38,108 nucleotides of DNA from Candidatus Enterousia scatequi (GTDB taxonomy: Bacteria; Pseudomonadota; Alphaproteobacteria; Rs-D84): NCBI GenBank assembly GCA_018064405.1, contig JAGHVG010000016.1, positions 1 through 38,108 on the forward strand, given 5' to 3'. Shown here piece after piece: positions 1 to 38,108 of this stretch. Numbering within the stretch: position 1 is the first letter of the stretch; every line of letters begins with the position of its first letter. Under the pieces are notes generated by a model that did no database searches, was not told the origin of the DNA, and saw only the letters and a list, made by a program, of their open reading frames with translations. Position numbers and translations under genes: made by a program.

Positions 1-90
1 TGCGGTTATCGTTGGCCAATCCGCCATTGCATTTATACCGTATATGCATGATAGTATTATTCCCAGTGTGAATATATTATGTTTGCGCAT
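1..90 (-). CDS. 5' end of an exported protein, paralogue of the 31389-32510 gene; runs off the left edge
   Basis: Reverse complement reads MRKHNIFTLGIILSCIYGINAMADWPTITA..., matching MRKHIFTLGIILTIIPAYG of the 31389 gene. The leader GGAAACTAAGGGGGACAGCACAATGCGCAAAC is shared. Confidence 0.75.
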   Translation of the reverse strand, partial: MRKHNIFTLGIILSCIYGINAMADWPTITA

Positions 91-124
91 TGTGCTGTCC
101 CCCTTAGTTTCCTATGATAAAAAT

Positions 125-150
125 GGTACATAAACCAAGGTTTTTGTACC
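125..150. promoter_or_regulatory. Imperfect palindrome GGTACATAAACC-AA-GGTTTTTGTACC upstream of surface-protein genes
   Basis: Near-perfect inverted repeat; homologous copies at 14899-14924 and 31329-31354. Spacing to the start codon is 34 nt here and at 31389. Confidence 0.55.
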
Positions 151-3156: not shown

Positions 3157-3183
3157 AAACCGTCAGAATGGCGGTTTTTTATT
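3157..3183 (+). terminator. Terminator after tRNA-Pro
   Basis: aaccgtc-agaat-ggcggtt then T-run. Confidence 0.65.
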
Positions 3184-3345
3184 AAAAATAACGCGATTTA
3201 ATCCGGTTACATAACTTTCAAAATATATACAAAAAACAAACAGTTAAATACGAAAAACTGGTACAAAAAAACCAAGGTTTTTTTTCCACCACTTTTTGCA
3301 ATAAAAACCCAGGATTTCTCTGCTGTTGCCGGCTTCGTCATAACT
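3184..3345. repeat. Diverged copy of the intergenic repeat family (R1)
   Basis: Shares aataacRcgatttaatcYggtt, caaacagttaaatac and ccactttttgcA with 14690-14815. Confidence 0.6.
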
Positions 3346-3884: not shown

Positions 3885-6278
3885 ATGAAGAAGATTCTAC
3901 TTTTTGTAGTGTGTTTTATCGCATGCTGGGGTGATTCAGTGGCGGCTGTTCGTGGTGCAACATCCGGACTTCGCCAATCATCTGTATCGCAACGTGTTAC
4001 GACCACAGATAAATCTGTGCGGACACCAACTGCACGAACTGCGGTAAACGTCAGTGCGCGATCTGGGGTGATAACACACAATACTGGTGCAAATACATCA
4101 CGTGCACAAAACCAATCAAATATAGCGCGTTCGGGTAATGAAAGTAATATGTCTGTTGCAGAAACGCGGACTGGTGCAGAGTATGAAAGGTGTAAAACCG
4201 CGTATTTTACATGTATGGATCAATTTTGCCTGTTAAAAAACGATAACTATCGTCGTTGTTCGTGCACAAATCGTGTCAATGAATTGGCAGATTTAATTGC
4301 AGAATTGCAAGAAGCCGGGGATCAGTTGAGTGTGTTTACAGAAAATTTAGATGTCGTTGGAATGAGTGCGGCACAGGCAAAATCAATGCGCACCCCATCA
4401 GAAGGGGAATCTGCGTTGGCATCAGATACTTCTGCGTCCAAGGCGATATTGGAAGCGATAATGAATTCTATACGGGGTGAAAGTGCAAGTGTTGCTGGGA
4501 AATATTCAGATTTAAACAGTTTAAATTTATCGTTTGATACGGTTAACGCATTTGGAACATCGGATATTGGACAAACTATTGCTGCATATAATGGGCAAAA
4601 TTTGTATGCTGCGGTTTATCCCCAGTGTCGTCAGGCGGTTCGTGCAGATTGTAATAACGCATCTTTACAGCGCGCAATAACGGCGTATTTGATGGCGATA
4701 GAACAAGATTGCAATACAGTGCAGACCGCGATTGAAAACAAACAAGCGGAATTAAAGAGTGCCCTGCGCGAGGGTAGTGCTATGTTGGATTTGGCGCGTA
4801 TAGAAAACCGTCAAACCAGGAATTCATATAATTTTACACAATGCATTAATAATATTGAACAAGCCATCCTTAGCGAAGAGGTGTGTGGTGCTGGATATCA
4901 CAAATGTCTGGATAACGGGCAGTATATAGATGTATCTACGGGTGCACCAATAAAGGGCGTGCCTAATTTCTATAAATTGGGACAATTATTGACATTTGAT
5001 GATAGTGTGGATGCCTTGAACCAAAAATTATCAAAAACTGTAAACAACCTGGGTTTTGTTAAGAACTTTGAAAGTAGGGTAAAAAAATTTGCAGAACCTG
5101 CGTTGGCGAAATGCAGTGAAAATGCAGATAGCGTTTGGTCTGATTATTTAGACAAGGCAATGCTGGATATATATTATGCCCAAAAAGCAAAAGTGGCAGA
5201 AATTAAACAGGGTTGTTTTGATTTTGTTTCGTCATGCTATATGAATACTGATGCGGCAATAACAACCGCAATGCGCGAATTGTTGAATGTTAGGGATATT
5301 GTTGTTCAACCTGATGCGATTGCGTTGAATGGTGCAATGTGCAGGGATTATGTTGATTCTTGTAATAATATGTTTGATGGTAATATTGTTGCCGAATATA
5401 TCAAAAATAGACAAGATACAGATGTGTTGACGGCTTGTCGGGCAATTGTTAAGCAATGTTTTGATAGTTATGGTGGAACCAATTATGAAAATTTTTATTA
5501 TCCGTATAGTGGTTTATTTGGAGTCAAAAATACCGTTAATGAGCAACAGGATGCCCAGACAGTATATGCACTAGATTGGTTTACATTGAGAGATAAAAAC
5601 GGTAATTTAGTTTCAGAATGCGCAGAACAATTAACGACTATTGATGCTTGTAATAATGACAAAATTATAGAGGAAGCATTTGGTGGATTTGACAGGTATG
5701 ATGATAGCAGTGTTCCTGGTGGAATTGCCTATGGTATAAAATCTGAAAATAATCCAAATATGCATATTAATCGTGGTGTAAGGGCAGGTGGGGTTGCCAC
5801 AGAAATTTATAATCAGATATTAGATGTTTTATCAATAAATTGTGCTAATATTGGTGGCAAGTTTGTAGCATTTCAAAATATATCTACTTTAAGCGGTTAT
5901 ACCGTAGGTGGTAGTAGTGGTGATATATGTAAAATTGCGTCATTTTCTGATGCCGATCTTGTTAAGGAATATGGTTTGATGCCTGACGAGGATATGTGCC
6001 CACGTGGCTATAAGTGGGATGTGGATATTAATTCTTGGGGTTTTTGTTCGTGTTGGGAAAACGGGTATAGACGGACTAAAAACGGTCAAACGATCAGCTG
6101 TTTTGCTGGATTGCCGGTCAAAGCAGAAAAAGCACTGAATGATAGGCAATGTGAATACGTTGATGAAGTGGATGTTGATTGGAACGGAGACGCTTCTAAG
6201 TGGTGTAGTTTGCCAGGAACAGTGGTTTGTCCATTTGGGAAAGTGTGGAATTCTACTATCAAACAATGTGTTAAATAA
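3885..6278 (+). CDS. Large exported Cys-rich protein of unknown function
   Basis: Signal peptide MKKILLFVVCFIACWGDSVAA; many Cys; Cys-dense C-terminus (CPRGYKW...CSCWENGYRR...CPFGKVWNSTIKQCVK). Confidence 0.7.
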   Translation: MKKILLFVVCFIACWGDSVAAVRGATSGLRQSSVSQRVTTTDKSVRTPTARTAVNVSARSGVITHNTGANTSRAQNQSNIARSGNESNMSVAETRTGAEYERCKTAYFTCMDQFCLLKNDNYRRCSCTNRVNELADLIAELQEAGDQLSVFTENLDVVGMSAAQAKSMRTPSEGESALASDTSASKAILEAIMNSIRGESASVAGKYSDLNSLNLSFDTVNAFGTSDIGQTIAAYNGQNLYAAVYPQCRQAVRADCNNASLQRAITAYLMAIEQDCNTVQTAIENKQAELKSALREGSAMLDLARIENRQTRNSYNFTQCINNIEQAILSEEVCGAGYHKCLDNGQYIDVSTGAPIKGVPNFYKLGQLLTFDDSVDALNQKLSKTVNNLGFVKNFESRVKKFAEPALAKCSENADSVWSDYLDKAMLDIYYAQKAKVAEIKQGCFDFVSSCYMNTDAAITTAMRELLNVRDIVVQPDAIALNGAMCRDYVDSCNNMFDGNIVAEYIKNRQDTDVLTACRAIVKQCFDSYGGTNYENFYYPYSGLFGVKNTVNEQQDAQTVYALDWFTLRDKNGNLVSECAEQLTTIDACNNDKIIEEAFGGFDRYDDSSVPGGIAYGIKSENNPNMHINRGVRAGGVATEIYNQILDVLSINCANIGGKFVAFQNISTLSGYTVGGSSGDICKIASFSDADLVKEYGLMPDEDMCPRGYKWDVDINSWGFCSCWENGYRRTKNGQTISCFAGLPVKAEKALNDRQCEYVDEVDVDWNGDASKWCSLPGTVVCPFGKVWNSTIKQCVK

Positions 6279-10015: not shown

Positions 10016-11289
10016 ATTTTATAACGCGGTATTTTACATCGTTATGGTCGTTTATCACTGCACCGTTTCGTGCAGTGTGGCGTGCTGTGGTTAAACTGTT
10101 TCCCCCGCGTGAGTTCACCGTTATGGATATTCCACGTGGCAATGTTTACAGTTTTCAACAGAGCAGTTTTTGGCGTTTTACTAAGTTCTGCGGCAAAATA
10201 GGGCTGGTGCTGTGGGCGTCATGGTCCACGTATGTGTTTGTGTATTATCGTCCATTATTGCAAAAGAAAACAGAGCAGTTGGCCGAAGAAACGGCTCGTC
10301 ATGCCCGTCATATGGTTGATTTACAGGTGTATTTGGCAAAATATAATGAATTGACCCAAAGTTTAAATGTGATTGATAATAAATTTTTGAACGATAAAAA
10401 GTTGACTAAGGATCAACAAGAAGATTTAACGACCAATCGTGCAAAAATATGGGGTGAAATGGATTTTTTGCATACGCGGCTGGTGGACATGTTTTCTAAC
10501 AGTGATTATGCCCCAGAATTTACAAAATTGGCTGATTTGTCGGTTGAATATGAATTGACTCGTGGTGAAAATATAGCGATTAAGCAACAAAATGACCAAT
10601 TAATAGATTCTATGGAATTGGTTGCAGATGCTGATAATATGATTGTGGATACTGTTGCGAAAATGACGGCGGAAAACACAGAAGAATTGCGTTCAAAGGT
10701 GAAACAAATAAATACAACCTTGGTTTCGTTGGGAATATCGGAAACGGATTTGTTGCAGAATGCTAATAAATATTCTAATCCATTGGTGGGTGCGGCATTT
10801 TCACCATTGAACATAGATAAAAAAATGGATGAAAAGTATCAAAAATTGGCGGATGGTCTGGAACTGTGGCACGGTTTGTCTCGTATAACTTCACTATTGC
10901 CTTTGGGGGCACCGGTTCAAAATCCACGTGTAACGTCTGCATACGGAACGCGTACGGATCCATTTGATAAAAAATCATCCAAAAAACACAAGGGGATAGA
11001 TTTTGCTGGAAAAATAGGAACAGAATTAATGGCTGTGGCACCTGGACGTGTTGTTTCTGCGGGTGAACGGGCAGGGTATGGCACAACGGTAGAGATAGAT
11101 CATGGACTTGGGTTTTCAACGCTATATGCACATATGTCGCGCATTACAGTTTCGCGTGGGGATTGGGTTCGCCCGGGAACGATTGTTGGACTTGCCGGAT
11201 CTACGGGTCGTTCAACTGGACCGCATCTTCACTATGAAATTAGGTACAAAGGGCAACCTTTTGACCCATCTAAATTCGTAAAGGAGTAA
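10009..11289 (+). CDS. M23 family metallopeptidase with N-terminal TM and coiled coil
   Basis: GIDFAG...GYGTTVEIDHGLGFSTLYAHMS...GSTGRSTGPHLHYEIR. Confidence 0.9.
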   Translation: MLNFITRYFTSLWSFITAPFRAVWRAVVKLFPPREFTVMDIPRGNVYSFQQSSFWRFTKFCGKIGLVLWASWSTYVFVYYRPLLQKKTEQLAEETARHARHMVDLQVYLAKYNELTQSLNVIDNKFLNDKKLTKDQQEDLTTNRAKIWGEMDFLHTRLVDMFSNSDYAPEFTKLADLSVEYELTRGENIAIKQQNDQLIDSMELVADADNMIVDTVAKMTAENTEELRSKVKQINTTLVSLGISETDLLQNANKYSNPLVGAAFSPLNIDKKMDEKYQKLADGLELWHGLSRITSLLPLGAPVQNPRVTSAYGTRTDPFDKKSSKKHKGIDFAGKIGTELMAVAPGRVVSAGERAGYGTTVEIDHGLGFSTLYAHMSRITVSRGDWVRPGTIVGLAGSTGRSTGPHLHYEIRYKGQPFDPSKFVKE

Positions 11290-12126: not shown

Positions 12127-14517
12127 TGCTATTACAAAATTTACCAATTTATTTGGGACAATGATTGTTTTTACTATTTTTTGTCCGTCTAGTTTTTTGG
12201 CAACAGTGTCTTTGGCGGCGGATGTTATGGCATTCTCTGATGCATCGGGTGCGATGTCAAATTGTCCGGCACGCTTGCCGTTAACAGATACCACAATGGT
12301 CACAGAGGCTTTCGCCAATTTAGATTCGTCAAATGTTGGCCATGCTTCAAATACCATTATGTTTTTATGGCCCAGTTTTTCCCACATTTCTTCGGTTAAA
12401 TGTGGTGCAAATGGGTTTAACACCTGAATTAAAGTTTCATATGCGGGGCGGGGCATATTTCCACTAAACTGATTCATAAATTCCATCATTGCAGAAATAG
12501 CCGTATTAAAATGCATATTGTCCAGGCGATCTGTGACATCAGCGACCAGTTGATTGACGATGCGTTCCTGTTCAGCGGTCATTGGTTCGTCTGTTAAATT
12601 ATCAGACATATTTTCAACACGTTTCAGAAAGCGTTGAACCCCAGCCAACGCGCCATCTGTCCATATAACATTGTTTTCCCATGGCCCCAGTGATAACACA
12701 GAAACGCGTGCCGCATCTGCACCAACAGCATCTACCAAATCAGCAACCATAAATCCGTTACCACGTGATTTTGACATTTTGTAGCCGTCATTACCCATTA
12801 ATAATCCCTGGGCAGTGCGTTTCTTGAATGGTTCGGGGGTGTTTACTAATCCCAGATCATATAATGCATGGTGCCAAAAACGTGAATAGATTAAATGGCG
12901 CGTATTGTGTTCGTGTCCCCCATTGTAGTGCGTCACAGGCATCCAGTTTTCCATTTGTTTGCGTGAACAAAATTCCTGGTCATTTTTTGGGTCCAGGTAT
13001 CGCAGATAATACCATGATGACCCAGCCCAACCTGGCATTGTATCTGTTTCGCGCTTGGCGGCTCCGCCACAGCATGGACACGTTGTGTTTACCCAATCGG
13101 TTGCGCGCGCCAATGGACTTTCGCCATTATCTGTGGGTCTGTAATCCATCATGTGTGGTTGCAGTATCGGCAATTCGTTCTCGGGCACTGGGATCCAGCC
13201 ACATTTATCACAGTAAATCATTGGAATTGGTTCGCCCCAATACATTTGGCGTGAAAATCCCCAATCTTTTAATTTGTATTTTGTTGTGCCGCGTGCAAAA
13301 CCATTTTTTTCGCCGTATTCAATCGCGGTTTTTATTGCGGTTTCTTTATCCATACCGTCCAAGAATTCTGAATTTATGTGCAGGCCATCACCTTCATAAA
13401 CTTTGTCTGGTTCACCACCGGATAATACTGGGATAATGTCCAAATTAAATTTCTTGGCAAATGCCCAATCGCGAGAATCGTGTGCAGGCACCGCCATAAT
13501 TGTTCCGTATGCATAATCTGCCAAAACGTAATCAGATGTAAAAACCGGAATTTGTTTGTTGGTAAAAGGGTTTGTTGCCATAATACCATCAAGTTTTATG
13601 CCTGTTTTATCTTTGGTTGTGTCGGTACGTTCTATCTCTGTCTTGGCGGCAGATGTTTTGATATATTGTTCAACTTCGTTTTTGTTCGCAATTTTACCAG
13701 CATCCAGCCATTTGCGTAATAGTTTATGTTCGGGGGCAATAACACAGAATGTTACACCGAAAATAGTATCAATTCTGGTGGTGTAAATTGTCATAGTGTC
13801 ATTATCAACGCGAAAATCAACGTCGGCACCATGTGAACGCCCAATCAGGTTGATTTCATCTTTTTTAATACGTTCGTCAAAGTCAACATCTTGCAATCCG
13901 TCTAGCAATTTATCCGCGTACTTAGATAGTGCCAGGTTCCATTGCATTTTTTCTTTTTTTTCAATTACGTTATGGCAACGTGGACATTTGTTGTCTTCCA
14001 ATTCTTCATTTGTAAATGTTGTTTTACATTCAGAACACCAATTCATCGGCAGGGCGGATTTGTATGCTAAACCCGCCTTGAAAAATTGAATAAACATCCA
14101 CTGTGTCCATTTAATGTATTCTGGATCCGATGTCGCGATACGCGTTTCAGGGCTAACCGACCAACCAACGCGGTCAATCATTTCAGAATAAGATTTTATT
14201 AAATCGCGTGCAACGTCAGCAGGGTGACGGCCAATTTTTGTTGCGTAATGTTCACCAGCAATCCCCATTGCATCAAACCCCATTGGAAATAATACATCAT
14301 ATCCACGATGACGGCGATATCGTGCCAAAACATCCATGCCCGAATAATTCATCATATGTCCGGCATGCATTCCGGCACCCGATAAAAACGGGAATTCAAC
14401 CAATGTGTAAAAACGTGGCTTTGAACCATCGTTTTTTGGAACAAAGGCACGTTCATCGCGCCAGCGTTTTTGCCATTTTGCTTCACGTTCTTGAATTTTC
14501 TTGATATCGTCGGTCAT
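12121..14517 (-). CDS. leuS: Leucyl-tRNA synthetase (divergent)
   Basis: HIGH-type HAGH; KMSKSRGN; Cys4 Zn motif; CP1 editing domain TTRIDTIFGVTFCVIAPEH and MAVPAHDSRDWAFA. Confidence 0.9.
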   Translation of the reverse strand: MTDDIKKIQEREAKWQKRWRDERAFVPKNDGSKPRFYTLVEFPFLSGAGMHAGHMMNYSGMDVLARYRRHRGYDVLFPMGFDAMGIAGEHYATKIGRHPADVARDLIKSYSEMIDRVGWSVSPETRIATSDPEYIKWTQWMFIQFFKAGLAYKSALPMNWCSECKTTFTNEELEDNKCPRCHNVIEKKEKMQWNLALSKYADKLLDGLQDVDFDERIKKDEINLIGRSHGADVDFRVDNDTMTIYTTRIDTIFGVTFCVIAPEHKLLRKWLDAGKIANKNEVEQYIKTSAAKTEIERTDTTKDKTGIKLDGIMATNPFTNKQIPVFTSDYVLADYAYGTIMAVPAHDSRDWAFAKKFNLDIIPVLSGGEPDKVYEGDGLHINSEFLDGMDKETAIKTAIEYGEKNGFARGTTKYKLKDWGFSRQMYWGEPIPMIYCDKCGWIPVPENELPILQPHMMDYRPTDNGESPLARATDWVNTTCPCCGGAAKRETDTMPGWAGSSWYYLRYLDPKNDQEFCSRKQMENWMPVTHYNGGHEHNTRHLIYSRFWHHALYDLGLVNTPEPFKKRTAQGLLMGNDGYKMSKSRGNGFMVADLVDAVGADAARVSVLSLGPWENNVIWTDGALAGVQRFLKRVENMSDNLTDEPMTAEQERIVNQLVADVTDRLDNMHFNTAISAMMEFMNQFSGNMPRPAYETLIQVLNPFAPHLTEEMWEKLGHKNIMVFEAWPTFDESKLAKASVTIVVSVNGKRAGQFDIAPDASENAITSAAKDTVAKKLDGQKIVKTIIVPNKLVNFVIAK

Positions 14518-14660: not shown

Positions 14661-14927
14661 ACCGCCTAAAATGGCGGGTTTTTGTTACAAATAACACGAT
14701 TTAATCTGGTTGCGAGAATTTAAAAATACATACAAAAATCAAACAGTTAAATACAAAAAAGTGGTGGAAAAAAACTAAGGTTTAAAGTCAACCACTTTTT
14801 GCATAATTTTGCTGTTGTTTAAAAATGCGCTGTAACCCACAGTGGGTGTGCGTTTGCGTGGTTTTTATAGGTATTGTCTTGTGGGTGCCTGATGGGGTGG
14901 TGCAAAAACCTTGGTTTATGTACCATT
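14661..14927. repeat. Intergenic repeat R2 upstream of surface-protein genes
   Basis: 14771-14927 aligns ungapped to 31201-31357 with 6 substitutions; left part resembles 3164-3300. Confidence 0.85.
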
Positions 14928-15217: not shown

Positions 15218-16462
15218 ATGAACAAACAAATATCATTATTCATTGTAATATTAATGACGATACCTGCTTTGGCATACGGTGACATTGCATCCACCGGATA
15301 TGTTGATAGTATTGCCAACACAAAACAAGACGTGTTACCGATGGCAGCCCGTCCAACCAATGGTACCTATAACGTTGTTTGGGATAGTAACAGTGGTCAG
15401 TTTATATTTGAACCAGGCATGCAATGTGGTTCGGGTTGTTATGTCAATGGAGATAATGTTTGTATGTATTGTGATAAAGCATCATTTAATACAACCCAAA
15501 CAGAAAGTGTAACCAACGGCACACGTTCGCGCACTAACGCATGTACATCTGTGGATGTTGGTGCAACAACGTGTTCATGTTCCAATCGCAGTTATGGTAA
15601 TTGGACATATAATTGTAATAGCGGCTATAGTGGATCATCATCATGTTCATGCACGACCCCATGCACATCTGTTGCGAATCGTACCGACACAACCAGTGGG
15701 ACGGAAACATGCACAATAAGAAACGGCACAGGCAAACGTTCATACACGAATACATGCAGTAGTAATTACACCAGCAGTGGTTGTTCATCTGCTGGTGCAT
15801 CGTGCAGTGGGTGCAGTGCGTATAACACGCGTTCATCGACGGGTACATGTTATGTTCAAACATGTAACACTGGATATTATGGCACAGCGAATTCGTCAAC
15901 ATCATGTAGCGTATGCACGAATAAGCCATTGCATTCATTCTATACTGGATCATCGACAAGCAACAACTGTCCATGGACATGCGATAGTGGCTATACTCAA
16001 GAGGGCAGCGAATGCGGTGGTCTGAGTTGTCCATCTGGCCAATACGACATCGGATTTAGTCAGTGCATAGATCCCGCCACGAATGAGACAGGTTATGGAT
16101 ACATCAACGACAGTGTTCATACTTGGATAGGTCCAGATAGTTCCAATGAGTCCGTATACGGTCTAACGCAAGACAACACCTGGGGTGTGACATTATATAC
16201 AGGTGATAAAATAAAGGGAGAGACATTATGCAGCAGCATGGAAGGGATAGATGGCAAACCTGGTAATCCTGATGAAGCATTTGATGAGGATACTAGTCAG
16301 TATTGCTGGTGCAGGATGACGTTTCCGGCTGTGTCGCGTTGGGTGTTCCTCTACGACGACGGCTTTGCGGGCAATTGCGCGAACAATTGTGCGGGCTACT
16401 GCGGTTACAACATCCAGTTCAATTCCGCTTTCCGTTCGGGCATGTTCGGTTCGGTTGAGTAA
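15218..16462 (+). CDS. Exported Cys-rich modular surface protein with C-terminal CPSGQYD...CWCRMT...RSGMF domain
   Basis: Signal peptide; Cys-rich EGF/GCC-like centre; C-terminal domain homologous to both halves of the 31389 product. Confidence 0.8.
   Translation: MNKQISLFIVILMTIPALAYGDIASTGYVDSIANTKQDVLPMAARPTNGTYNVVWDSNSGQFIFEPGMQCGSGCYVNGDNVCMYCDKASFNTTQTESVTNGTRSRTNACTSVDVGATTCSCSNRSYGNWTYNCNSGYSGSSSCSCTTPCTSVANRTDTTSGTETCTIRNGTGKRSYTNTCSSNYTSSGCSSAGASCSGCSAYNTRSSTGTCYVQTCNTGYYGTANSSTSCSVCTNKPLHSFYTGSSTSNNCPWTCDSGYTQEGSECGGLSCPSGQYDIGFSQCIDPATNETGYGYINDSVHTWIGPDSSNESVYGLTQDNTWGVTLYTGDKIKGETLCSSMEGIDGKPGNPDEAFDEDTSQYCWCRMTFPAVSRWVFLYDDGFAGNCANNCAGYCGYNIQFNSAFRSGMFGSVE
16333..16459 (+). 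other. Candidate DGR-type variable region A
   Basis: Compared with 31904-32018: changes concentrated at codon positions 1 and 2 with third base kept, mostly C; at extreme 3' end of CDS. Confidence 0.5.
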
Positions 16463-31170: not shown

Positions 31171-31186
31171 ATGGGTTACCTCCTAA

Positions 31187-31357
31187 AAACTGGTGCAAAA
31201 AAAACTAAGGTTTAAAGTCAACCACTTTTTGCATAATTTTGCTGTTGTTTAAAAATTCGCTGTAATCCACAGTGGATGTGCGTTTGCGTGGTTTTTATGG
31301 GTATTGCCTTTTGGGTGCCTGATGGGGTGGTGCAAAAACCTTGGTTTATGTACCATT
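31187..31357. repeat. Intergenic repeat R3 upstream of surface-protein gene
   Basis: 31201-31357 aligns ungapped to 14771-14927 with 6 substitutions. Confidence 0.88.
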
Positions 31358-31388: not shown

Positions 31389-32510
31389 ATGCGCAAACAC
31401 ATATTCACACTAGGAATAATACTAACCATAATACCGGCATATGGATACAGATCAAGGGATGCAAATAATATCTGGACCGATCCAGAACGTACAACGCTTG
31501 CCAAAGAAATATGCGATAGTGATACCCAGGGTTGTCCATCTGCATCATGTTGGTTACCTGGTGGAATATATTATGATAATAAGGGAACATTTACCGAAAC
31601 ATGTACTGGTGGTTGTTCATCTGGTCGATACAACATTGGATTCAGCAGTTGTGTTGATGTAAAAACGAATGGCACAGGTAGGGGCTATATAACCAGAGGA
31701 AGAGAATACACTGCTGACACCGGTACCTATGGTCTAACGGAGGACCAGACATGGGGCGTGACATTTAGTGGTTATGGTCAAGTAAAAGGTATATCAGCAT
31801 GTACTAGCACATCTGGTACATTGGGTGTAGCCACTGATACAGAATTTAGTAACACAACACTAACTGGAGGCAATTGTTGGTGTAAAATGACAAGTCCGGC
31901 TACTTCGCGTTGGGTGTTCTACGCCGCCGACAGCGGTTCGGGCTCTTGTGGTCGCTGGTGTGCGTACCACTGCGCTGACGTAGTCCAGAACAATGTCATA
32001 GTCCGGTCGGGCATGTTCAGGTTATTTGGGTCAGAGTCGTCTTTTGACCAAACTTATGCGCGCAAATTAAGGGATTGTTCGAGATTTAGTTGTCCACCTG
32101 GTCAATACGACTTAGGATTCAGCAGTTGCATTGAAAATGTGTGGGGAAGTGGCTGGGGCGGTTGGAATTTTAATGGGGGCAAATCCTCCGCCACCACCTA
32201 TGGCTTAACTGCAGCTGGTCAATGGGGTACAACATTAGATGGTGGTAATAACATAACAGGCATAGCATCATGTAATGATACACCTGGTACACAAGGTGTA
32301 CTCGCCGATACAGAATTTAGTAACACAGTAAGTGGAGAATATTGTTGGTGTAAGATGACAAGTCCAGCTGCTTCGAGTTGGGCGTACCTCTACGACTACA
32401 CCACCAATAGTTCTTCCACGTGCGCTGAAGATTGTGCGGGCTACTGCGGTAGGTACAGCCAGAGCACCTCGAGTTTTCGGTCGGCCATGTTCTGGTCGGT
32501 GGGGAATTGA
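31389..32510 (+). CDS. Exported surface protein with two tandem copies of the CxSGxYD...CWCKMT...RSxMF domain
   Basis: Signal peptide; internal duplication (31607-32039 and 32084-32510) and homology to C-terminus of the 15218 product. Confidence 0.82.
   Translation: MRKHIFTLGIILTIIPAYGYRSRDANNIWTDPERTTLAKEICDSDTQGCPSASCWLPGGIYYDNKGTFTETCTGGCSSGRYNIGFSSCVDVKTNGTGRGYITRGREYTADTGTYGLTEDQTWGVTFSGYGQVKGISACTSTSGTLGVATDTEFSNTTLTGGNCWCKMTSPATSRWVFYAADSGSGSCGRWCAYHCADVVQNNVIVRSGMFRLFGSESSFDQTYARKLRDCSRFSCPPGQYDLGFSSCIENVWGSGWGGWNFNGGKSSATTYGLTAAGQWGTTLDGGNNITGIASCNDTPGTQGVLADTEFSNTVSGEYCWCKMTSPAASSWAYLYDYTTNSSSTCAEDCAGYCGRYSQSTSSFRSAMFWSVGN
31904..32018 (+). other. Candidate variable region B (internal domain copy)
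   Basis: Ungapped codon alignment to region A; variation biased to codon positions 1 and 2. Confidence 0.4.
32372..32505 (+). other. Candidate variable region C (3'-terminal domain copy)
   Basis: Same scaffold as region A with about 2 inserted codons; 3' end of CDS; followed by AATTGATG also seen after region A. Confidence 0.45.
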
Positions 32511-36861: not shown

Positions 36862-37743
36862 ATGTTATTATCTAAATTAAAATCTGTTTTTGGTTTTGCT
36901 GTGACTGCGTGTTTTGTGGTCGCCGGTGCGAATGCGGCATTTTTGTCTGATTATGGCCAGATTCAGAATGTCCCAGATTATTCATTAAATCCTGCAAACA
37001 AGATTGGAACACCATATAATCAAACGTTCCCCCGGATGATATATGCCCAAGGAACTGATTTGGATACGGCGGAATGTGAACGTACGGTGGCAACACTGAT
37101 TGCGGCATATTGTGCTGGGATAAATAATTGTGTGGAAACGCGGTTGTCGGATTTGCGTCCTGTTATAATGGTGCAACTGTCGCGTTTGCCGGGACATAAT
37201 TATGCGTCGGCGTGTGGTGGATTTATTGATTCTGAATTTGAACGGTTTACGTCCCAATATGGTAATGCGGCACCACAGTACAGGGCAACGTTTCCAAACG
37301 CAACGGAACCGACCAAGAATTCTGATGGTGAATTTAAAATCAAGAATCCATACGAAATTAAATTAAATGACTGGCAGATTGATTATTTGGAACGCGCAAA
37401 TGAATTGGAACAATTGCAGGCAATAAATGGCGCGGGAACCGAATCATTGGCGCGTGCGGATTTTCCGGAAACGTTTGCAGATTTACCATTTGAAGAACGT
37501 ATGGCGATTTTGCAATCTGGATATGAACAGTATAAGGATTCCAGTGCATATAAACAAATGAATATTGAAGATTATGAAGATTATCAGATTCGAATCAAAA
37601 AAGAGTCAGCAATTGTTAAAAATTTTTGTTTGGATGTTGCGCCAGGACGGTTACGTGTGTTGAATGCGGATTTGGCAATGGCAAAACAGTGTCGTGATGC
37701 TGGGGTGCCTGTTGGCAGTTGTAATTTGCAGGGAACATATTGA
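36862..37743 (+). CDS. Exported protein of unknown function
   Basis: Signal peptide ending GANAAF; 4+ Cys; no family recognised. Confidence 0.65.
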   Translation: MLLSKLKSVFGFAVTACFVVAGANAAFLSDYGQIQNVPDYSLNPANKIGTPYNQTFPRMIYAQGTDLDTAECERTVATLIAAYCAGINNCVETRLSDLRPVIMVQLSRLPGHNYASACGGFIDSEFERFTSQYGNAAPQYRATFPNATEPTKNSDGEFKIKNPYEIKLNDWQIDYLERANELEQLQAINGAGTESLARADFPETFADLPFEERMAILQSGYEQYKDSSAYKQMNIEDYEDYQIRIKKESAIVKNFCLDVAPGRLRVLNADLAMAKQCRDAGVPVGSCNLQGTY

Positions 37744-38108
37744 TGAGAACGTGTAAATATTTTGCATTGTGTGTTTGTGCTTTTTGTTATGGAAACGCAT
37801 TTGGACTTGATGTTTCTGAAATAGCAAATCCAAATGCATGGGTGCAGAAAACACGCCAAGAAACTTACACTGTTGGTGCAGATGGGAAATCATTGTTTCA
37901 TGGAAATACGAATACGGGTATGACTTTAAAATCTACAGGGGAAGTTGGGAGTCAAATAAAGGTGGTTGATAAAAATATACCGGCAAGGGTTAGAACAACA
38001 CCAAGTCCAACGCCAAGTCCAACACCGACACCAAGTCCAACGCCAAGTCCAACACCGACACCAAGTCCAACACCGACACCAAGTCCAACGCCAACACCGA
38101 CACCAAGT
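37743..38108 (+). CDS. Exported protein with TPSPTP-repeat stalk, truncated at window end
   Basis: Start overlaps previous stop (TGATG); MRTCKYFALCVCAFCYGNAFG signal peptide; PTPSPTPTPSP repeats. Confidence 0.7.
   Translation, partial: MRTCKYFALCVCAFCYGNAFGLDVSEIANPNAWVQKTRQETYTVGADGKSLFHGNTNTGMTLKSTGEVGSQIKVVDKNIPARVRTTPSPTPSPTPTPSPTPSPTPTPSPTPTPSPTPTPTPS
37998..38108 (+). repeat. Short tandem repeat (6-bp periodicity) coding Thr/Ser-Pro
   Basis: ccaagtccaacgccaagtccaacaccgacaccaagt... Confidence 0.92.

Follow-up and report, generated by a model that had tools for sequence, protein, structure and literature searches.

The window analysed here, a 38,108-nucleotide contig of the gut bacterium Candidatus Enterousia scatequi, contains a gene whose product carries the same domain twice (31389..32510, + strand, 373 residues, two profile matches in one frame). 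It raises the question of whether this domain is a variable one that is rewritten by a diversity-generating retroelement (DGR) and, if so, where the rewriting machinery resides. The original prediction had suspected a DGR variable domain without sight of a reverse transcriptase (RT) or a template, and both have now been found in the same assembly. Neither the RT nor the closest template is on the contig of the window, and both would have to act in trans. The reading that we favour, with a probability of roughly 0.83, is that a family of DGR targets has this domain as its variable part, that the domain is rewritten by retrohoming through the RT on contig C8, and that it is built on a helical scaffold rather than on the C-type-lectin fold. 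For the family as a whole, a DGR has good support. As far as sequence comparison can tell, the case for rewriting as a past event is strong for the domain copy called A below, and good for copies B and C.

Results

A domain family outside the named ones

The 373-residue product consists, in order, of a hydrophobic N-terminus resembling a signal peptide, domain copy B, a linker and domain copy C. Copy B is internal (31614..32030, +, profile E 3e-52) and copy C is C-terminal (32091..32507, +, E 5e-52), in the arrangement that had been proposed. A second gene of the window (15218..16462, +, 414 residues), recognized as an ORF with a profile match, carries copy A at its C-terminus (16028..16459, +, E 9e-60). 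These E-values (9e-60 to 5e-52) refer to a profile of which all three copies are themselves members; with copy C alone as the query, A was recovered at 2e-27 and B at 4e-26, far beyond chance. The domain is about 140 residues long, and searches of Pfam, NCBIfam, PHROGs and PDB sequences with it returned nothing convincing, in keeping with the expectation that it falls outside the named families. Matches to the META domain, seen in 11 of 73 members with a best E of 0.004, were dismissed as noise. A Pfam search with the N-terminal parts of three other targets gave no significant match.

The three copies originally counted were a large undercount. In the host assembly (756 kb in 38 contigs, 79% complete), copy C gave 26 matches; merging the fragments and leaving out three template-like sequences reduces these to about 19 domain copies. 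Some of them are truncated where a contig ends, and stops or frameshifts disrupt at least two others (C36 and C3b). A profile search of related genomes, which the original prediction had proposed, placed the domain in 149 of the 201 genomes of the order Rs-D84. The reported identity of stretches between B and C was confirmed, in that the 21-nt sequence 'gatacagaatttagtaacaca' has exactly two occurrences, at 31836 and 32307. The idea of a recent tandem duplication had to be given up: in the constant part B and C are 50% identical, whereas the copy on contig C28 is 64% identical to C and 62% identical to B, so that each is closer to this third copy than to the other.

Upstream of the gene lies a leader or promoter repeat (31185..31357, +), 95% identical to a second copy that precedes ORF 15218 (14756..14927, +). 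This repeat is common to several target genes and is also found before the copies on contigs C36 and C30. A further target-family gene, truncated by the contig end, begins on the minus strand at 56..150; this segment holds the last part of the upstream repeat together with the first codons and is 91% identical to the start of the 31389 gene. Taken together, the upstream repeats of target genes (31185-31357, 14756-14927, 3167-3300 and 56-150 in the window, and those on contigs C30, C36 and C17) are 83-95% identical. They are more alike than the coding parts, which suggests that the genes share their regulation or have spread with their leader. The partial repeat at 3167-3300 does not stand directly before any domain copy. 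An invertible promoter was considered and rejected, as only short or weak inverted repeats were seen in the upstream repeats.

DGR machinery in the same assembly

The assembly contains a single RVT_1 gene, located at 9076-10161 of contig C8. It encodes the DGR-type motifs IGNLTSQ and YCDD, and among solved structures its nearest relative is 8ub7 (E 1.5e-46, residues 3-316), the RT of the Bordetella phage DGR. Around it are a gene for a 108-residue accessory protein just before the RT (8734-9057 of C8, L002), the AAC-rich repeat TR1, which is a template and spans about 10190-10345, and, at 10594-11043, the target gene cognate to TR1. TR1 and the VR of this target differ at 16 of 30 template adenines and at 1 of 101 other bases. 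As a template of the window copies TR1 was rejected, since it shows 33-35 non-A differences out of about 100. The nearest template found for them, and for most other copies, is TR2, a second template-like sequence near the end of contig C17 that reads WVFNNDNNNADNCANNCANNCGNNVQNNSDFRS.

In the proposed mechanism, an RNA copy of the template repeat would be reverse-transcribed by the C8 RT with errors at adenines, and the cDNA would then replace the matching 3' part of the domain in the target genes (mutagenic retrohoming). The rewriting of A, B and C would be the work of TR2-type templates acting in trans, whether it still goes on or belongs to the past. We infer this step, because no template found in the assembly, itself 79% complete, matches any of the three copies exactly.

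The full-length upstream cassette of TR2 was found only on C17 and C13. At the end of C13 (L030, about 12300-12642, minus strand) the cassette is 98% identical, and what follows it, in place of an AAC-rich template, is a core that resembles a VR, is already varied and lacks a start codon. This core may be a template that was overwritten, an orphan VR or an artefact of the assembly.

The 108-residue accessory gene, a candidate for the DGR accessory protein Avd, had no family match in Pfam, NCBIfam or PADLOC and a weak one to a PHROG of unknown function; its position before the RT is conserved in three genomes (L002:8734-9057, L171:2517-2843 and L175:2714-3040). A paralog of the domain adjoins the RT here (L002:8295-8726) and in relatives (L083:2521-2919, L055:2890-3324, L086:2381-2794 and L087:498-902). 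Its helix appears conserved and not template-like (ASGCxxxC...TxFRT), and this paralog may perhaps be a fixed partner of the variable proteins.

Differences concentrated at template adenines

Compared with TR2, the VR-like part of copy A (16328..16453, +) differs at 16 of 32 adenines and 7 of 94 other bases (p=7e-7), and that of copy B (31899..32024, +) at 21 of 32 and 16 of 94 (p=6e-7). The VR-like part of copy C (32367..32498, +), which is two codons longer than TR2, differs at 16 of 32 and 18 of 94 (p=0.001). The cognate TR1 pair, with a single non-A mismatch in 101, is considerably cleaner than any of the three. The third base of the AAY codons of TR2 is kept in 14 of 14 cases in copy A, 12 of 14 in B and 10 of 14 in C; over 17 copies compared with TR2, these codons were changed 175, 117 and 39 times at positions 1, 2 and 3, of 238 each.

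Comparison by codon position, also proposed beforehand, showed that divergence is not uniform along the domain and that changes in its last part spare the third position (A-B, p=4e-5; A-C, p=0.005); a well-characterised non-variable family with uniform divergence is thus not what was found. In the A-B comparison, the third position is altered in 5 of the 20 changed codons of the last part, against 57 of 75 upstream. Changes upstream of the VR at codon positions 1, 2 and 3 number 45, 37 and 57 for A-B, 40, 42 and 61 for A-C, and 38, 28 and 35 for B-C, the third position changing most in the first two comparisons and not in the last. The contrast between VR and upstream part therefore holds for A-B and A-C but not for B-C, where it is not significant (p=0.17).

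Copies C20, C25b, C29 and C3b form a subgroup with differences at 4-9 of 94 non-A positions as against 20-26 of 32 A positions. Such subgroups, which agree at non-A bases and differ at A positions, point to several template versions. When the third template deduced from these four copies was sought in the assembly, only C17 and the known copies were retrieved.

The internal VR of copy B

In copies A and C the VR is 3'-terminal within its target gene, which is a usual but not a defining feature of DGRs. In copy B, 178 residues follow the Cys motif, and the VR is not 3'-terminal. Copy B, and perhaps C, might be a fossil VR that was rewritten once, has lost its template or downstream site and is now drifting, and we regard the odds of this as about even. 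It would fit the internal position of B, as VRs are normally C-terminal owing to a requirement for intergenic cis elements (PMC8144416), and the fact that B and C each have more non-A differences than A does. Against a fossil stand the clean non-terminal VRs of the relatives L180 and L181, where differences are confined to adenines (0 of 121 and 4 of 123 non-A) even though about 60 coding residues follow. Tandem VR-bearing domains within one protein are also known from Thiohalocapsa (PMC10907252), and 20% of the present genome is missing, perhaps including the templates. Within the DGR reading that we favour, copy B is probably an old site, or one that is rewritten only rarely.

Ordinary paralogs as an alternative

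The window copies might instead be ordinary surface-protein paralogs that diverged under diversifying selection and recombination, with only the RT-adjacent target being rewritten by the DGR. Such an origin would accommodate the mismatches of B (16/94) and C (18/94) to non-A bases of their best template, the non-significant third-position contrast in B-C and the wide occurrence of the domain in genomes without an RT. Yet selection at the protein level would not be expected to spare the third base of AAY codons (39 of 238, against 175 and 117 at the other positions), nor to concentrate changes at template adenines, and scattered genes within the subgroups share their non-A bases while differing at A positions. 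We therefore consider it improbable that the window copies have had no part in the rewriting.

Predicted structure of the variable domain

Copy C and the C8 target were modelled as two separate AlphaFold2 queries from shallow alignments (73 and 53 rows), giving a pLDDT of 93.9 and a pTM of 0.89 for copy C, and 91.2 and 0.83 for the C8 target. In both models five strands precede a pair of C-terminal helices, in which most of the VR lies; in copy C the helices are predicted at residues 108-125 and 127-135. In these models the variable residues are paired every four residues on the C-terminal helix (NCANNCANNCGNN), the variable pairs being set between conserved Cys and Ala/Gly positions in a CAxxCAxxCGxxVxxx pattern. 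Among the copies of the genome, entropy peaks at +2, +3, +6, +7, +10, +11, +14 and +15 from the first helix cysteine and is zero or low at the Cys and most of the intervening Ala/Gly and Val positions, a four-residue period that fits a stripe along the predicted helix. The rewritten residues are thus predicted to form a variable face on a secreted protein, and this face may bind partners such as the host, other microbes or phages.

In C-type-lectin VRs the variable residues lie on strands and loops, with no long C-terminal helix. That layout was not seen here, as helices extend over most of the VR in both models. Foldseek searches against the PDB and BFVD found no convincing fold, with a best E of 0.8, no VIA-align match exceeded Z 3.0, and no solved C-type-lectin variable protein was among the matches listed by either program; these missing matches are no proof of a new fold, as an unlisted family could exist. 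An hhalign comparison of the domain (A2) with the C-type-lectin targets of sister loci gave a probability of 0.2%, and the PDB sequence search found no match, C-type-lectin VR domains included. On the predicted models, then, the scaffold is different from the C-type-lectin fold of characterised DGR targets. That the models are wrong and the domain is a divergent C-type-lectin fold, as might be argued from the shallow alignments, from fold searches whose silence proves nothing and from the expectation that uncharacterised VR domains are C-type-lectin variants (PMC8144416), is very improbable, given that two models from different queries and alignments agree, with concordant five-model means, that Foldseek and hhalign gave nothing better than the values above and that the period of the variable pairs fits a helix.

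Relatives and RT phylogeny

An RT search gave a match in 60 of the 183 genomes of the family, a few of these being weak matches to other RTs. One match is in G005, from the same genus as the window (G005:C17:89442-90404), and L189, Candidatus Enterousia onthequi, carries an RT locus. Over 32 RT loci, some of them sister loci outside Rs-D84, TR and VR differ at 446 of 795 adenines and at 25 of 3329 other positions; the TR/VR pairs were picked for A bias, so that this ratio is descriptive, but the near absence of non-A changes is not produced by the choice of pairs.

Sister RTs that are 43-51% identical to the C8 RT diversify VRs of the C-type-lectin type (AGGxW...SRCR...GARG), and the target of L213 matches Mtd with an E-value of 2.5e-14. 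Of the 19 RTs in a 36-row tree that are associated with the helical domain, 17 cluster together (support 100/97), and on the other side of the tree all RTs with C-type-lectin targets fall within one 16-row group (support 100/97). The remaining two helical-domain RTs, L204 and L205 from Rickettsiales-labelled MAGs, lie near the base of that other side. The target-type label thus needs two changes on the tree, and a single switch of scaffold is plausible only.

Most genomes of the genus that bear the domain (for example, G003, G035, G104 and G105) have no DGR RT match, some of them with more than 20 copies; in G003, a one-contig genome, the RT match is short and contains an internal stop. Judging from these sequences, the domain seems to be older than the DGR or to persist after it.

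Discussion

The DGR of Bordetella phage BPP-1 (RT 8ub7; target Mtd, 1yu0-1yu4 and 2iou) has an RT homologous to that on C8 and a TR/VR pair with A-confined differences, and the same retrohoming may be supposed for both. Unlike in BPP-1, where Mtd varies on a C-type-lectin fold, the variable residues here lie on a predicted helix of another fold, the targets are many and dispersed, and an accessory 108-residue gene without a family match is present. The sister loci (L201, L202, L206, L207, L209, L210 and L213) are alike in their RT (43-51% identity) and in having A-confined TR/VR pairs, but differ in their VR type (AGGxW...SRCR...GARG). The DGRs of Thiohalocapsa PB-PSB1 likewise have several targets and tandem VR domains, and there is evidence for action in trans in that organism; however, it has nine RT loci and defence-linked C-type-lectin targets, whereas here one RT was found and the targets are secreted (PMC10907252). 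Paralogous targets scattered over the genome are also seen in cyanobacterial DGRs with remote variable proteins, whose remote VRs occur only at the 3' ends of C-type-lectin genes (PMC7517822), while the present family has one internal copy and a different predicted fold.

Among more than 30,000 surveyed DGRs, those VR regions that could be annotated were systematically of C-type-lectin fold, and VR domains of unknown type were expected to be variants of it (PMC8144416); structural papers, too, have treated this fold as a scaffold that is conserved wherever DGRs generate variation (PMC6328139, PMC5006420). In the open-access literature on DGRs together with Enterousia or a non-C-type-lectin fold, we found no report of the domain. 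What appears to be new here is the helical scaffold, as predicted by the models, as well as how many targets this reduced genome holds and how they are laid out. If correct, the helical scaffold, together with sister RTs that still use C-type-lectin targets, would mean that the mutagenesis machinery can work on more than one scaffold, and it would provide a second natural design for display libraries. Enterousia has been placed in the order Rs-D84, with genomes near 1 Mb and a predicted symbiont or parasite lifestyle (PMC12306168); in such reduced genomes a rewritable secreted repertoire may serve to track partners or to avoid phages.

The domain also occurs in very long open frames of about 1,170 to 4,110 codons (L185, L191, G050:C11, and G078:C2 and C3), so that, judging from these frames, the variable domain would sit on giant proteins too. 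A scan of IMG/VR for the domain returned one relative, L217 (contig 3300028797_006173, viral according to the IMG/VR listing), in which the domain lies at 4860-5285 in a long ORF and is followed by about 60 residues. Near the end of the window, a tandem repeat at 37966-38103 codes for a TPSP/TPTP-rich sequence, and the ORF that begins at 37740 continues past the contig end.
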